Source: Geomonas subterranea (lineage in GTDB: Bacteria; Desulfobacterota; Desulfuromonadia; Geobacterales; Geobacteraceae). Taken from it: a stretch of 64,000 nucleotides of DNA. Below the pieces are notes generated by a model. That model had not been told where the DNA came from. It worked only from the letters and a program-made list of their open reading frames with translations, and made no database searches. A program made the position numbers and the translations under genes. The stretch spans positions 3,650,501 to 3,714,500 of the forward strand of contig NZ_CP077683.1 of the NCBI RefSeq assembly GCF_019063845.1. Reading direction: 5' to 3'. Below are positions 10,475-15,753 of the stretch, one piece after another. Every line of letters starts with the position of its first letter. Position 1 is the stretch's first letter.

Positions 10475-10693
10475 AAATCCCCCAAAAACGCTGGTTCAGC
10501 CGTGACCGGACATAATAACAAAATAAGCGGAGCAGAGGCAAGGTAAATACCCGCCGCGCCGCCCCGCGAGTCGCAACGCATACCTTATTTGCGGTACTCA
10601 TTGGAGCATATCGGGTGCGGTTCTCATGAGCCCGGAGGGCTCGCCACCACCCACCACACCGTATTTCAACTGTTTACAGCTATAATGAGAGGC

Positions 10694-10709
10694 TGGCACG
10701 CTACCTGCT
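10694..10709 (+). promoter_or_regulatory. sigma-54-like promoter before the Ala/Lys-rich gene
   Basis: TGGCACG, four bases, then CTGCT matches the -24/-12 sigma-54 consensus with one mismatch in the -12 element. A TATAAT box lies just upstream at 10681-10686, without a convincing -35. Transcription would start about 30 bases before the ATG at 10751. The rest of 10475-10693 shows no gene. Confidence 0.55.
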
Positions 10710-10750
10710 AAAGAAAGGGCACCAACCCATTTTGTACAAGGAGAATTACC

Positions 10751-10984
10751 ATGAAAAAAGTTCTGTCCTCCGTAGTTGCTGCTCTCGTTGCTGTTGCTTT
10801 CGCTGGTGTTGTTTTCGCTGCTGACGCTGCTCCGGCTGCTGCTCCGGCTGCAGAGGTTAAGAAAGAAGAGAAAGCTCCGGCTAAGAAAGCTGCTCCGAAG
10901 AAGAAAAAAGCTGCTAAGAAAGCCGCTGCTAAGAAAGAAGAGAAGAAAGAAGAAGCTCCGGCTGCCGCTCCGGCTGCAAAGTAA
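10751..10984 (+). CDS. small exported Ala/Lys/Glu-rich protein
   Basis: The 77-residue product starts with a clear signal peptide (MKKVLSSVVAALVAVAFAGVVFA, likely cut after the second AxA). The mature chain of about 54 residues is almost only Ala, Lys, Glu and Pro, reading like a histone-H1 or AlgP tail. No enzyme or metal motif is present. AAGGAG lies six bases before the ATG, a sigma-54-like promoter precedes it, and a strong terminator follows 23 bases after the stop, so it is a single-gene unit. Nearly all alanine codons are GCT, unlike the GCC/GCG bias of the neighbours, which suggests either very high expression or a repeat-expanded origin. Function is unknown. Confidence 0.8.
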   Translation: MKKVLSSVVAALVAVAFAGVVFAADAAPAAAPAAEVKKEEKAPAKKAAPKKKKAAKKAAAKKEEKKEEAPAAAPAAK

Positions 10985-11007
10985 TTTCCCCTTAACGGGT
11001 AATTGCG

Positions 11008-11039
11008 AAAGGCCGCATCTCACGATGCGGCCTTTTTTT
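11008..11039 (+). terminator. strong Rho-independent terminator
   Basis: AAAGGCCGCATC and GATGCGGCCTTT pair around a four-base loop and are followed by a T-run. It ends the small Ala/Lys-rich gene. Confidence 0.92.
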
Positions 11040-11085
11040 ATGTCCTGCTCCTGGACATGCCAGCGGTCCCCGCTCCCACAGCAGC

Positions 11086-11123
11086 ACCCTCACCCCGCCC
11101 CTTTCCCGGAGGGCGAGGGGGTA
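11086..11123. repeat. GC-rich intergenic palindrome (CTCCCC...GGGGAG type)
   Basis: A C-rich arm and a G-rich arm around CCCTTTCCCGGAGGGCGAGG form an imperfect palindrome of a type found in at least ten other gaps of this window. Confidence 0.5.
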
Positions 11124-11163
11124 GAACGTCGCCCGGCCTCCGCGCTTCGTTATTGCGGGACAT

Positions 11164-11213
11164 AAAAAAAGATCCAAGGGTTCCGGTCGCGGAACAAGCC
11201 TTGGATCTTTTTT
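11164..11213 (-). terminator. terminator, probably bidirectional
   Basis: AAAAAAGATCCAAGG and CCTTGGATCTTTTTT are inverted arms flanking GGTTCCGGTCGCGGAACAAG, which itself can pair. The A/T tails allow function on both strands. It lies 30 bases after the end of the minus-strand TIGR04073 gene. Confidence 0.85.
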
Positions 11214-11242: not shown

Positions 11243-11617
11243 CTACTCCTTCTGCCAGGCGTAAGCCGGGTCGAGGTAGGGATCGTAAAAGCCGGGATAG
11301 GCCAAAAAGAACGTCGCCGTCTCGCCAACACCCGATGCCGTGCGCACCAGCGTCATCCCAATTCCCTTAAGGGGACCGACGGTGACACATTTGGCAGCCC
11401 CGTCCTCCTTGCAGGTGATGTAGATCTGCTTGGGGATCTCCAGCCATCCGGTCGCGATGTTGGCGACACCCCGGACCAACTTGTTTGCCATGCCGTCCAC
11501 CACTTCCTGCGGGGAGGCGCTATCCAAGGAGCGGGAATCGGCGGCGTGCCCGTTCTTCGCCGTCAGGACCAGGGCCAGCGCCAGCATGGCCAGAAAAACA
11601 AACCTCTTCCCCATCAT
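11243..11617 (-). CDS. TIGR04073-family exported protein (copy 2)
   Basis: The 124-residue product has a signal peptide (MMGKRFVFLAMLALALVLTAKNGHA) and the family core KLVRGVANIATGWLEIPKQIY, then VGPLKGIGMTLVRTASGVGETATFF, ending FYDPYLDPAYAW. The family is named for species that carry an exosortase system, but its role is unknown. Two Cys (ITCKEDGAAKC) could form a disulfide. The ATG at 11617 follows the stop codon of the upstream paralogue with no gap, with GGGAGAG as the ribosome-binding site, so the two genes are translationally coupled. No exosortase gene is present in the window. Confidence 0.82.
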   Translation of the reverse strand: MMGKRFVFLAMLALALVLTAKNGHAADSRSLDSASPQEVVDGMANKLVRGVANIATGWLEIPKQIYITCKEDGAAKCVTVGPLKGIGMTLVRTASGVGETATFFLAYPGFYDPYLDPAYAWQKE

Positions 11618-12028
11618 CTACTCTCCCTTGGCCTGAACGGGTTGAGCTTCGCTCTGCCCTCTCGGTTCGACCCTTTTTTCCTCCCATCCCTCCCAGACGT
11701 ATTCCGGGGTGATCAGGGGATCGTAATAGCCAGGCTGGGGGACCGCGAAGAACACGGTCTCGGTCAGACCGGTCAGCAAGCGATAGAAGGCCATGCCCAC
11801 GCCTTTCAAAGGCCCGACCACATAGCCGATGCCGCCGCGGTCCCGAACCATCAGGTACGACTGCTTGGGAACCTCGGCCACTGAGGTCACCGTATTGGTC
11901 ACCCCGCGAACCAGTTTGAACGCCATCTTCTCGGCAATGGCCTCCGGCTGCTGACCTTCCAGCGCAAACGAAGACGTGGCAAAAACCATGAGCAGCAACA
12001 GGGATAACAAGGTGGCCTTGGTACGCAT
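11618..12028 (-). CDS. TIGR04073-family exported protein (copy 1)
   Basis: A 136-residue paralogue of the gene directly downstream. It has a signal peptide (MRTKATLLSLLLLMVFATSSFA) followed by KLVRGVTNTVTSVAEVPKQSYL, VGPLKGVGMAFYRLLTGLTETVFF and YYDPLITPEYVWEGWEE, so the same pattern of a shared motif, a short variable piece and a DP(L/Y)...Y(A/V)W end. AGGAG lies five bases before the chosen ATG at 12028; an earlier ATG at 12079 would disrupt the signal peptide. The C-terminal tail of about 20 polar residues is absent from the neighbour. The product should be periplasmic or surface-exposed; function unknown. Confidence 0.82.
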   Translation of the reverse strand: MRTKATLLSLLLLMVFATSSFALEGQQPEAIAEKMAFKLVRGVTNTVTSVAEVPKQSYLMVRDRGGIGYVVGPLKGVGMAFYRLLTGLTETVFFAVPQPGYYDPLITPEYVWEGWEEKRVEPRGQSEAQPVQAKGE

Positions 12029-12134
12029 GTCGACTCCTTTTTGAGCTACATGTCGGTAAATGCTATGTTCTTGTAGCATAGATGGCTTTCATTGGCAAGA
12101 CAGCACTAACTCTATCATTGTAGGGATCAACTGA

Positions 12135-12948: not shown

Positions 12949-13773
12949 TTAGCGCTCCACGATTTCGCCGCGGATACTGATAGTTACCTCGCGGAACGGG
13001 ATCTCCATGCCGGAAGCCGCCAGGGCCTGGCGCGCCGCCATGACGATGCCGCCGCAGCAGGGGACTTCCATCCTGAGCACCGTGATCCCCTTGATGCCGG
13101 AGACGCGGAACAGCTCGGTCAGCTTTGCCAGGTACGCGTTGTTGTCATCCAGTTTCGGACAACCGACCACCACAGCCTTGCCCGCCAGGAAATCCTGGTG
13201 ATAGTTCGGATAGGCGAAGGGGACGCAGTCAGCGGTGATGAGCAGCTCGGCATCCTTGAAGTAGGGCGCCGTCACCGGTACCAGGTGCAGCTGCACCGGC
13301 CATTGAGCCAGTTGGCTCTGTACCGCGCCCGCCGCCGGGACCGGAGCGGACGGAGCCGGTGCGAAACTCTGAACGCGGGAGCCGGGGCAGCCGCCACCGT
13401 GACCGCCACCGTGACCGCCACCGTGACCGCCACCGTGACCGTGACCGTGACCGTGACCGTGACCGTGACCGTGACCGTGACCGTGACCATGACCGTGACC
13501 GTGACCATGAGCGTGAGCGGCGGGGGCTCCGCCCTGAGCGGTCAGATGTTTCTCTACGGCGGCCTCGTCGAATTCATCCGCTTCACGTTCGATGATGGTG
13601 ATGGCGTCCTGCGGGCACTCGCCCAGGCATGCACCCAAGCCGTCGCACAGATTGTCAGCGGCGATGTGAGCCTTGCCGTCCACAATCTTGATGGCGCCTT
13701 CCGCACAAGACGGTACGCAAAGTCCGCAGCCGTCGCACTTCGCCTGGTCGATATGTACGATTTTCCTGATCAT
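12949..13773 (-). CDS. two-[4Fe-4S] ferredoxin with a long His-Gly linker and a C-terminal Cys domain
   Basis: The 274-residue protein has an N-terminal bacterial-type ferredoxin with CDGCGLCVPSC and CDGLGACLGEC (residues about 13-53; the second motif has spacing CxxxxxCxxxC). A roughly 40-residue His-Gly-rich linker follows (residues about 86-126, repeated HG then HGGG), then a C-terminal domain with conserved cysteines in ITADCVPF, VVVGCPKLDD and EVPCCGG. Family members are often annotated as 4Fe-4S or ATP-binding proteins; no reaction is established. The His run probably binds metal such as Ni, Zn or Cu. GGGGGA lies six bases before the ATG. It stands alone between a peroxiredoxin and a YgbA-like gene. 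Confidence 0.85.
   Translation of the reverse strand: MIRKIVHIDQAKCDGCGLCVPSCAEGAIKIVDGKAHIAADNLCDGLGACLGECPQDAITIIEREADEFDEAAVEKHLTAQGGAPAAHAHGHGHGHGHGHGHGHGHGHGHGHGHGGGHGGGHGGGHGGGCPGSRVQSFAPAPSAPVPAAGAVQSQLAQWPVQLHLVPVTAPYFKDAELLITADCVPFAYPNYHQDFLAGKAVVVGCPKLDDNNAYLAKLTELFRVSGIKGITVLRMEVPCCGGIVMAARQALAASGMEIPFREVTISIRGEIVER
13393..13515. repeat. tandem hexamer/dodecamer repeat encoding the His-Gly linker
   Basis: About four copies of a 12-base unit (CCGCCACCGTGA) run into more than ten copies of the 6-base unit GTGACC with rare GTGACCAT variants. The repeat is in frame with the ferredoxin gene, so changes in copy number would alter His content without breaking the frame. Confidence 0.9.
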
Positions 13774-14255: not shown

Positions 14256-14316
14256 GTCAACAATTTAAACTTCGCACCCTTTGCCTTTGCTGCGGATTTA
14301 TGTTAATTTTCCGCGA

Positions 14317-15753
14317 ATGAACACTAACATGGAAAAAGTCATCATCCCGCGCGCGGAGCACTCCATCTCCCGTTCCCTGTTGAGCCCCAACGGTGTGAAG
14401 GTGCTCTACAAGCTAAGGGAACAGGGGTTCATCGCCTACCTGGTGGGCGGCGGCGTCCGGGACCTGCTCCTTGGGAGAGAGCCCAAGGATTTCGACGTCG
14501 TCACAGACGCCACCCCCAATCAGCTCAAAAAGCTGTTCCGCAACTGCCGCCTGATCGGGCGCCGCTTCCGCCTTGCCCACATTCACTTCCACGACGAGAT
14601 CATCGAGGTCGCCACTTTCCGCTCCACGGTGGATGCTGCCGAAGCTGCCGCCGAAGCGGTTGCCGAGGATGCTGTCGAGGCTGTTCCCGAGACCGTTGAC
14701 GAGGCCGAGGTGCTGGAAGGGGAGCGTGACCGGAGAAGGCGCCGTCACCACCATGGCCCGCCCATACTGAAGAGCGAAGACGGAATGGTGCTCAGGGACA
14801 ATGTCTTCGGCACGCCCGAAGAAGACGCGGTGCGCAGGGACTTCACCGTCAACGCCCTGTTCTACAACATCGCCGACTTCTCCATCATCGACCACGTGGG
14901 AGGGATGGAGGACCTGAAAAACGGCCTCATCCGCACCATCGGCGACCCCATGGTCCGCTTCACCGAAGACCCGGTGCGCATGATCCGCGCCATCCGGTTC
15001 GCCTCCATGCTCGGCTTCAACATCGAGCCCCGCACCGAGGCCGCTATCGAGGCCCTATGCGGTACCATCAACAAGGCCACGCCCCCGCGCCTTTACGAGG
15101 AAGTGCTGAAACTGCTGCTCATGGGTGCCGGGGAGCGGACCTATCAGATGATGCGTCACAGCGGGCTGTTTGAACCGCTTTTCCCCCACTTCGACGCCTG
15201 GCTTTCCCGGGAATCGGATTGCTATCCCCACGTCCGGGTCGGCAAGGCCCTCGAATGGGCCGACGACCTGATCGGCCAGGGCACCGCCGTCACGCCGCCC
15301 CTGTTGATCGCACTTATGTTCGGCGAGTACCTGGAGGAGAAGGTGGCACAGTTCCGGGACGAGGGGCTTGCGCCGCAGCAGGCCACCGACGCCGCTGTGG
15401 CCGCCTTCGCCGGAGAGCTCGCGCCGACGGTCTCGGTGCCCAATCGGGTGCTGGTCACCGTGCGCGACATCCTGAACCTGCAGCACCGCTTCCAGAAGAC
15501 CCCCGGCAGGAACGGCCGCGGAGTGCTGGCCCGCCCCGCCTTCCGCGACGCGCTGCAGTATCTGCGTTTCATGGAACTGCTCGCCCCGCCGAAACGGTCC
15601 CTGGCCGAATGGTGGGAACGTTACGCCGTGCAGCAATCGGAGGGAGGTGAATCCGCACCCGAACCAAGAGGCGAGGCGGCAGCCGCGGAGGCCGAGAAGA
15701 AAAAGCGGCGCCGGAGAAGGCGCCGGAGAAAGCCTGGGGGAGCGCCGGAATAA
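14317..15753 (+). CDS. pcnB: poly(A) polymerase I / CCA-type nucleotidyltransferase
   Basis: The protein (478 residues from the ATG at 14317) has the class II nucleotidyltransferase head LVGGGVRDLLLGREPKDFDVVTDATP with the catalytic DFD. EDAVRRDFTVNALFYN and the RNA-binding EDPVRMIRAIRFASMLGF follow. A basic tail (EKKKRRRRRRRRKPGG) ends it, as in PcnB rather than CCA-adding enzymes, so it should add 3' poly(A) tails that speed RNA decay. An Ala/Glu-rich then Arg/His-rich insertion of about 40 residues (around residues 117-157) interrupts the head domain. The start is uncertain: candidates are 14281 (TTG), 14317 and 14329, none with a strong ribosome-binding site. Confidence 0.88.
   Translation: MNTNMEKVIIPRAEHSISRSLLSPNGVKVLYKLREQGFIAYLVGGGVRDLLLGREPKDFDVVTDATPNQLKKLFRNCRLIGRRFRLAHIHFHDEIIEVATFRSTVDAAEAAAEAVAEDAVEAVPETVDEAEVLEGERDRRRRRHHHGPPILKSEDGMVLRDNVFGTPEEDAVRRDFTVNALFYNIADFSIIDHVGGMEDLKNGLIRTIGDPMVRFTEDPVRMIRAIRFASMLGFNIEPRTEAAIEALCGTINKATPPRLYEEVLKLLLMGAGERTYQMMRHSGLFEPLFPHFDAWLSRESDCYPHVRVGKALEWADDLIGQGTAVTPPLLIALMFGEYLEEKVAQFRDEGLAPQQATDAAVAAFAGELAPTVSVPNRVLVTVRDILNLQHRFQKTPGRNGRGVLARPAFRDALQYLRFMELLAPPKRSLAEWWERYAVQQSEGGESAPEPRGEAAAAEAEKKKRRRRRRRRKPGGAPE

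Follow-up and report, generated by a model that had tools for sequence, protein, structure and literature searches.

The 64,000-nucleotide stretch of the Geomonas subterranea genome analysed here (the window) contains a small gene that is predicted to encode an exported, lysine-rich, disordered protein, and that lies behind a putative sigma-54-type promoter with an unusually well conserved enhancer and IHF-like control region. We give about an even chance to the reading that the product is an abundant periplasmic disordered polycation (net charge about +9), made on demand within a respiratory programme and acting by its charge. The family is present in 98 of the 103 good genomes of a well-studied, electricity-making order, Geobacterales, and has neither a Pfam nor an NCBIfam model. 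As delimited here, the feature runs from the -24 element (10694) to the stop codon of the open reading frame (ORF) 10751-10984. The gene and its control region consist of the following parts:

10581..10596, plus strand: UAS1, enhancer dyad TACCTTATTTGCGGTA (consensus TACCNCAWWTGNGGTA, one mismatch), starting 113 bp upstream of the TGG of the -24 element; from aligned upstream regions and a genome scan
10602..10617, plus strand: UAS2, a degenerate second dyad or half site TGGAGCATATCGGGTG, 21 bp downstream of UAS1; from fixed W columns at -83/-82 and G columns at -79 to -77 in 108 upstream regions
10664..10676, plus strand: IHF-like box TTTCAACTGTTTA (one mismatch to WATCARNNNNTTR); from aligned upstream regions
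10694..10709, plus strand: putative sigma-54 -24/-12 element TGGCACGCTACCTGCT; from sequence and footprinting
10738..10743, plus strand: ribosome-binding site AAGGAG; from sequence, similar in relatives
10751..10984, plus strand: gene for a polycationic disordered protein of 77 aa, predicted to be exported; from the ORF list, translation and relatives
10751-10819, plus strand: predicted signal peptide; read from sequence
10820-10981, plus strand: mature part with the conserved C-terminal Lys; from sequence and relatives
11007..11036, plus strand: intrinsic terminator-like stem-loop of 13 pairs; from a scan, with similar stems downstream of the relatives' genes

The preprotein of 77 aa begins with MKKVLSSVVAALVAVAFAGVVFA and continues after residue 23 with a mature part of 54 residues: 23 Ala, 16 Lys, 8 Glu/Asp, 6 Pro and one Val. 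Its N-terminus reads as a signal peptide (KK n-region, hydrophobic core, A-x-A site), and AlphaFold, run with an 18-row alignment, gave a single helix over residues 2-26 and a pLDDT below 50 for 46 of the 77 residues. The product is, by both sequence and model, predicted to be exported, and the tail after the signal peptide is predicted to be disordered, which bears out the exported Lys/Ala/Pro/Glu polycation with a 54-residue tail that had been proposed in a preliminary description of this locus. Metal binding, also proposed there, looks unlikely, since a Lys-rich chain of about +9 that lacks Cys and is poor in His would be a weak cation ligand. The terminator-like stem is supported by the recurrence of such stems in relatives rather than by the scan, shuffles of which give a mean of 1.1 such sites, and the gene appears to be monocistronic.

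Downstream of the polycation gene, on the minus strand, lie two tandem genes for TIGR04073 exosortase-system-associated proteins (11243-11617 and 11618-12034). Further along are a ferredoxin-like protein whose long His-Gly repeat (HGHGHG...) may be an insert that handles metal (12949-13773, minus strand), and a protein that by eye resembles tRNA nucleotidyltransferase/poly(A) polymerase and has an RRRRRHHH run in its interior and a long Arg run at the C-terminus (14281-15753, plus strand). The neighbourhoods of 148 family loci, many of them overlapping, revealed no functional link: the radical-SAM TIGR03960 cluster was found in 56 and other clusters in fewer, and an ORF with GAFTGA, a motif typical of sigma-54 activators, in only one (L133).

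The same genome carries a second copy with 92% identity (G000:C1:4338170-4338403) and a third, weaker match at 2540515; the weaker own-genome matches L003-L005, one at E 9.8e-4, were left out of the member set. The family was matched in all 19 genomes of the genus (E 0.01) and in 44 of the 48 genomes of the taxonomic family (E 0.001). A search for homologues, which the preliminary description had suggested, extended it to 122 of the 141 genomes of the order (profile search, E 1e-4; 98/103 good genomes), with one to eight matches per genome, the weaker of which are uncertain. At class level (E 1e-5) 121 of 277 genomes were matched, all inside the order and none among the 136 class genomes outside it. 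Judged by these searches, the family is restricted to the order and often multicopy. A contig scan with conserved peptides confirmed nine loci, including those of Geomonas paludis, Geomonas propionica, Geomesophilobacter sediminis and Geotalea toluenoxydans. No homologue lacking the signal peptide, which would have spoken against export, was met, although this is a weak check as the ORF filters required an MK start and, in the order set, a hydrophobic stretch.

Pfam gave no match above cut-off; Pox_Ag35 (0.0069) and Ureide_permease (0.14) were rejected as identities, being below cut-off and apparently compositional. No NCBIfam model claims the family either, the best being Asr (NF033636; E 1.6e-4, 22.5 bits against a curated cut-off of 50). 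The 'murein lipoprotein' GSU0182, reported as lower in ihf mutants (PMC7962754), was considered as a member and dropped, as no tie to the family could be made. Among the literature titles and abstract openings searched, none was found naming such a protein. Its members may be hidden, without a name, among hypothetical proteins in gene lists already published; the list in PMC2725144, for example, includes 63 genes of unknown function.

For comparison of the proteins, 109 members were assembled: 31 from the genus loci (ATGAARAAR.. start, more than 35 A+K) and 78 from 80 order regions (Lys above 12%, K+A+P+E+V above 66%, hydrophobic N-terminus, MK start). These filters act on composition, so the lack of Arg and some of the charge range are not independent results, while the terminal Lys was not a selection criterion. 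Three of the 80 order regions (L093, L095 and L139) gave nothing under the filter, yet hold divergent members. Loci L035-L071 stand outside the counts as such; L051 is without an ORF and L049 without a -24/-12 element under the strict pattern.

The members are 71-86 aa long, and every one of the 109 ends in Lys and carries Asp or Glu at residue 25. Among the 105 distinct sequences Lys occupies position -1 in 100% and positions -2 to -8 in 0-7%. The 109 mature parts contain no Cys, no lipobox was seen, and the signal peptides end in A-x-A. The net charge stays at 8.84 +/- 1.20 (105 distinct members). In the identity classes below 80%, the members of a pair are 8-15 charge-changing steps apart, with a mean squared net-charge difference of only 2.5-3.8; the squared difference amounts to 0.16-0.30 of the charge-changing steps between pairs, against 1 expected without compensation. 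Gains and losses of charge thus compensate each other, and Lys and acid counts are correlated (r = 0.60, 105 distinct members).

Seven more members (L163, L176, L177 and L185-L188), which came from the DNA dyad with a less strict ORF filter, all end in Lys, as do the divergent members L093 and L095. The divergent member L139, on the minus strand, has an Arg-Thr repeat (RTRTRTRTRTR) in place of the Lys run and a C-terminal Gln, behind the same dyad and putative sigma-54 promoter. This member points to positive charge, more than Lys as such, as the feature that counts, and its Gln end weakens models that need a terminal Lys. In L121, L138 and L140, runs of Thr or of Thr/Glu stand in place of parts of the Ala/Pro arms and the Lys end is kept.

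Upstream regions were available for 108 members (L146 was left out, its contig ending 31 nt upstream); these sequences are related, equivalent to about 92.5 effective ones at 60% identity, and dinucleotide shuffles of the same regions served as controls. TGGCAY-N6-TGC occurs exactly in 100 of the 108 (shuffled 0.08) and with at most one mismatch in all 108 (shuffled 2.03), in keeping with the sigma-54-type promoter of the preliminary description, to which the dyad and the IHF-like box are additions. The dyad TACCNCAWWTGNGGTA was found with up to two mismatches in 90 of the 108 (shuffled 0.1). The IHF-like box, at the same tolerance, was found in 86, compared with a shuffled mean of 30 and maximum of 43, and is exact in only 10; an IHF site at sigma-54 promoters is common, not obligatory. 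Dyad, box and -24/-12 element occur together in 69 of the 108 regions and never in the shuffles. The putative sigma-54-type promoter and its enhancer/IHF-like control region are, by this comparison, real and conserved.

The family layout places the dyad start about 111 bp before the TGG, a second site 21 bp nearer, the IHF-like box at -29 to -17, then TGGCAY-N6-TGC and a start codon 51-74 nt past the T of TGG. The dyad distance is 109-113 bp in 79 of 90 cases, 122-123 bp in seven, 98-99 bp in two, and 103 and 114 bp once each; it is 100 bp in L185-L187. An activator confined to a single helical face would require shifts of this kind, by 11-12 bp. Within three mismatches, the dyad was missing from L083, L086 and L103 among the 108 upstream regions; L083 and L086 have AGG instead of TGG. 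The divergent loci L093 and L095 have the TGGCAY site without the dyad pair. A scan of 10480-11180 on the plus strand for sigma-70-type promoters found none. A -10-box-like stretch TATAATGAGA lies at 10681-10690, just upstream of the -24 element, and is conserved in one paralogue group and many genus loci; the scan found no -35 element matching it.

The specificity of the dyad depends on its context. The own genome has only two dyad sites with at most one mismatch, one upstream of each family gene; at two mismatches, the sites number fewer than those of the control and have no convincing -24/-12 element downstream. Across 28 genomes, 65 forward matches (at most one mismatch) compare with 50 for a control pattern, so that the dyad alone is weakly specific. 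Among 27 loci chosen by the dyad pattern alone (the best site per genome, the window genome excluded), 20 show a -24/-12 element 100-113 bp away and then a family ORF, and two of the other seven (L162 and L183) precede genes of PpcA-type triheme cytochromes. Of 20 of the remaining sites, 19 are without a -24-like element 70-160 bp downstream, and the other (L254, 91 bp) again precedes a PpcA-type gene; one site of the 28-genome scan (G058:C20:356) was left out.

We know of no activator for the dyad TACCNCAWWTGNGGTA. Candidates were sought by comparing Sigma54_activat (PF00158) matches in G140, which has the family (13 matches), with those in G129 (20) and G135 (17), both without it by profile; 12, 19 and 16 frames, respectively, were retrieved, one frame of about 950 aa per genome being left out. 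L263, L292 and L286 were read by eye, outside the BLAST comparison. L281 and L291 have no reciprocal partner in G129 or G135, and L290 has none in G135. In 41 genomes the C-terminal part of L281 has, itself apart, three strong relatives (G046, G121 and G124) and that of L291 has none, a rarity that rules out both as the order-wide activator. The 771-aa sigma-54 activator L284 (G140:C33) has an N-terminal 4Fe-4S ferredoxin-like part, and similar long frames occur in many genomes of the order. It is a redox-sensing candidate for the dyad activator, and it has partners in G129 and G135, both without the polycation.

PpcA-type proteins are known as periplasmic. With the gene of L162 as a PpcA-like query, 34 of 35 genomes gave a match at E 1e-8. 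Of 53 PpcA-type ORFs, 11 have the dyad (at most two mismatches) and TGGCAY 60-150 bp apart (shuffled mean 0.005, maximum 1). The spacing is 89-92 bp in ten (L189, L192, L198, L211, L219, L220, L221, L227, L228 and L254) and 134 bp in L183. Six of the 11 had been picked through the dyad: L183 and L254 in the dyad searches, L189 as the query's own gene, and L219-L221 by a dyad nearby. Without them the count is 5 of 47 (L192, L198, L211, L227 and L228), and L194 is a weaker case (three mismatches, 90 bp). The cytochrome dyad, at about 91 bp, takes the position of UAS2 in the polycation genes.

All 11 dyad-bearing cytochrome genes belong to the sister families f3 and f4, and the 17 PpcA-type ORFs examined from the family of the window genome include none with the pair; for the window genome, the link is thus indirect. 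At most cytochrome sites the -12 part departs from the canonical form (TGTA, TGAA, GTGA), and L219-L221 have a sigma-70-like stretch nearer the start codon; the enhancer may act at a second promoter of these genes. The ppcB promoter of G. sulfurreducens was assigned to RpoD by primer extension under the conditions of that study (Leang 2009, PMC2725144). Another dyad, ACCCGACATCGGGT, lies upstream of PpcA-type ORFs in the own family (L203, L205, L206, L207, L208 and L210) and in a sister family (L202), followed in several loci by a stretch like TATAGATGTCGATA.

Alanine in the window gene is encoded by GCT in 86% of cases, compared with 5% in six window neighbours, so the contrast with the neighbours pointed out in the preliminary description holds and extends beyond the ribosomal-protein genes (18% in 11 such genes of the same genome). 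A PpcA-type gene of this genome, with GCT for 8% of its 13 Ala codons, is without this bias. The GCT share has a median of 85% (range 59-90%) in the 31 genus copies and is weaker in the 78 order copies (median 60%, range 10-89%). Such a bias, exceeding that of ribosomal genes, is compatible with the abundant product that had been suggested earlier, but is not proof of it, and it could instead stem from repeat expansion.

From this material we infer a periplasmic location, high abundance, one dedicated activator and a respiratory or redox signal. A single sigma-54 activator would bind the dyads, IHF would bend the DNA between dyads and promoter, and sigma-54 polymerase would make a strong monocistronic transcript. 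The signal is probably respiratory or redox-linked, because the same dyad lies upstream of PpcA-type genes in part of the order. More speculatively, the exported chain might serve as a soluble counter-ion that coats or screens the anionic polymers of the envelope (phosphate and carboxylate groups of LPS, carboxylates of peptidoglycan) during high cytochrome traffic in the periplasm. Iron-breathing Geobacter-type bacteria have a small, strongly positively charged protein, predicted to be exported, under an unusually well conserved switch. The dyad offers a direct handle on the activator, and the activator would offer one on the signal and on whether cytochrome supply and periplasmic charge are under joint control.

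PpcA itself is a basic lysine-rich protein, which disfavours direct binding of the polycation to it. Rather unlikely in our view is a role in electrostatic tuning of electron transfer in the periplasm: by taking up anionic docking sites or walls in competition with basic triheme cytochromes, the free polycation would keep these cytochromes mobile. The enhancer dyad shared with PpcA-type genes of sister families suits this, as does the restriction of the polycation to an order known for its periplasmic cytochromes, but none of the 17 own-family PpcA-type ORFs has the dyad pair, though the polycation is present in all 19 genus genomes. The invariant terminal Lys (109/109 members, yet 0-7% at -2 to -8 in the 105 distinct ones) recalls an unlipidated, Braun-like wall protein, which an L,D-transpeptidase would join to peptidoglycan through that Lys, giving a fixed positive brush. 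The mature parts have no Cys, no lipobox was seen and the Arg-Thr member ends in Gln, while the Lys could merely shield a '...PAA' tail from a tail-specific periplasmic protease; we therefore hold such anchoring to be improbable. There is a very slight chance that an order-wide sigma-54 circuit combines these elements, with the polycation tied by its C-terminal Lys to peptidoglycan as a tunable positive brush and the same activator raising triheme cytochromes in part of the order, so that charge and electron traffic would be set together.

A stress shield of the Asr kind, i.e. a disordered periplasmic chaperone induced by acid or envelope stress, would share the layout of signal peptide and basic Ala/Lys-rich tail and has the best NCBIfam match in its favour; that match is compositional and far under the 50-bit cut-off, and Asr belongs to another promoter class and another clade, which leaves this explanation unlikely. 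The preliminary description had also considered binding of extracellular DNA or polysaccharide. The histone-tail-like composition and the signal peptide would fit a secreted matrix polycation, but nothing points to passage across the outer membrane, and the dyad-sharing genes of relatives encode PpcA-type periplasmic proteins, a link that favours the periplasm and respiration over the exterior; we see only a small chance of a matrix role. ORF 10751-10984 might in principle be a chance frame and no real gene, as frames of low complexity are easily formed and it is overlapped by an open frame on the antisense strand, but with start, ribosome-binding site, promoter and enhancer conserved across the order this is next to negligible.

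Bacterial H1-like histones (Hc1/Hc2, AlgP, BpH1) share Lys/Ala/Pro repeats such as AKKAKKAKKAKK with the polycation, but they are cytoplasmic DNA-binding proteins without an export signal, whereas the polycation has a predicted signal peptide, read from the sequence and consistent with helix 2-26, and would not remain in the cytoplasm. Repeats of this type outside the cytoplasm are found in the C-terminal Lys/Ala/Pro tail of mycobacterial HBHA, which is set apart, by description, by its folded N-terminal part and its unrelated phylum. The Braun lipoprotein Lpp is likewise a very small exported protein with a C-terminal Lys; it is a coiled coil, whereas the mature polycation is without Cys and predicted to be disordered. 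Asr, the enterobacterial acid-shock protein (NF033636), likewise combines a signal peptide with a small tail that is basic and rich in Ala, Lys and Pro, and differs in the sub-threshold score (22.5 bits against 50), in the putative sigma-54 promoter and enhancer dyad of the polycation, in its conserved C-terminal Lys and in its restriction to one order. The asr gene has a promoter with a PhoB box (PMC9026648). In its -24/-12 element, the polycation gene resembles the sigma-54 promoters described for G. sulfurreducens, among them those of pilA, fliL, nifEN, dcuB, fdnG, flgJ and glnB (PMC2725144), and IHF between enhancer and promoter is described as a general sigma-54 pattern (PMC7962754).
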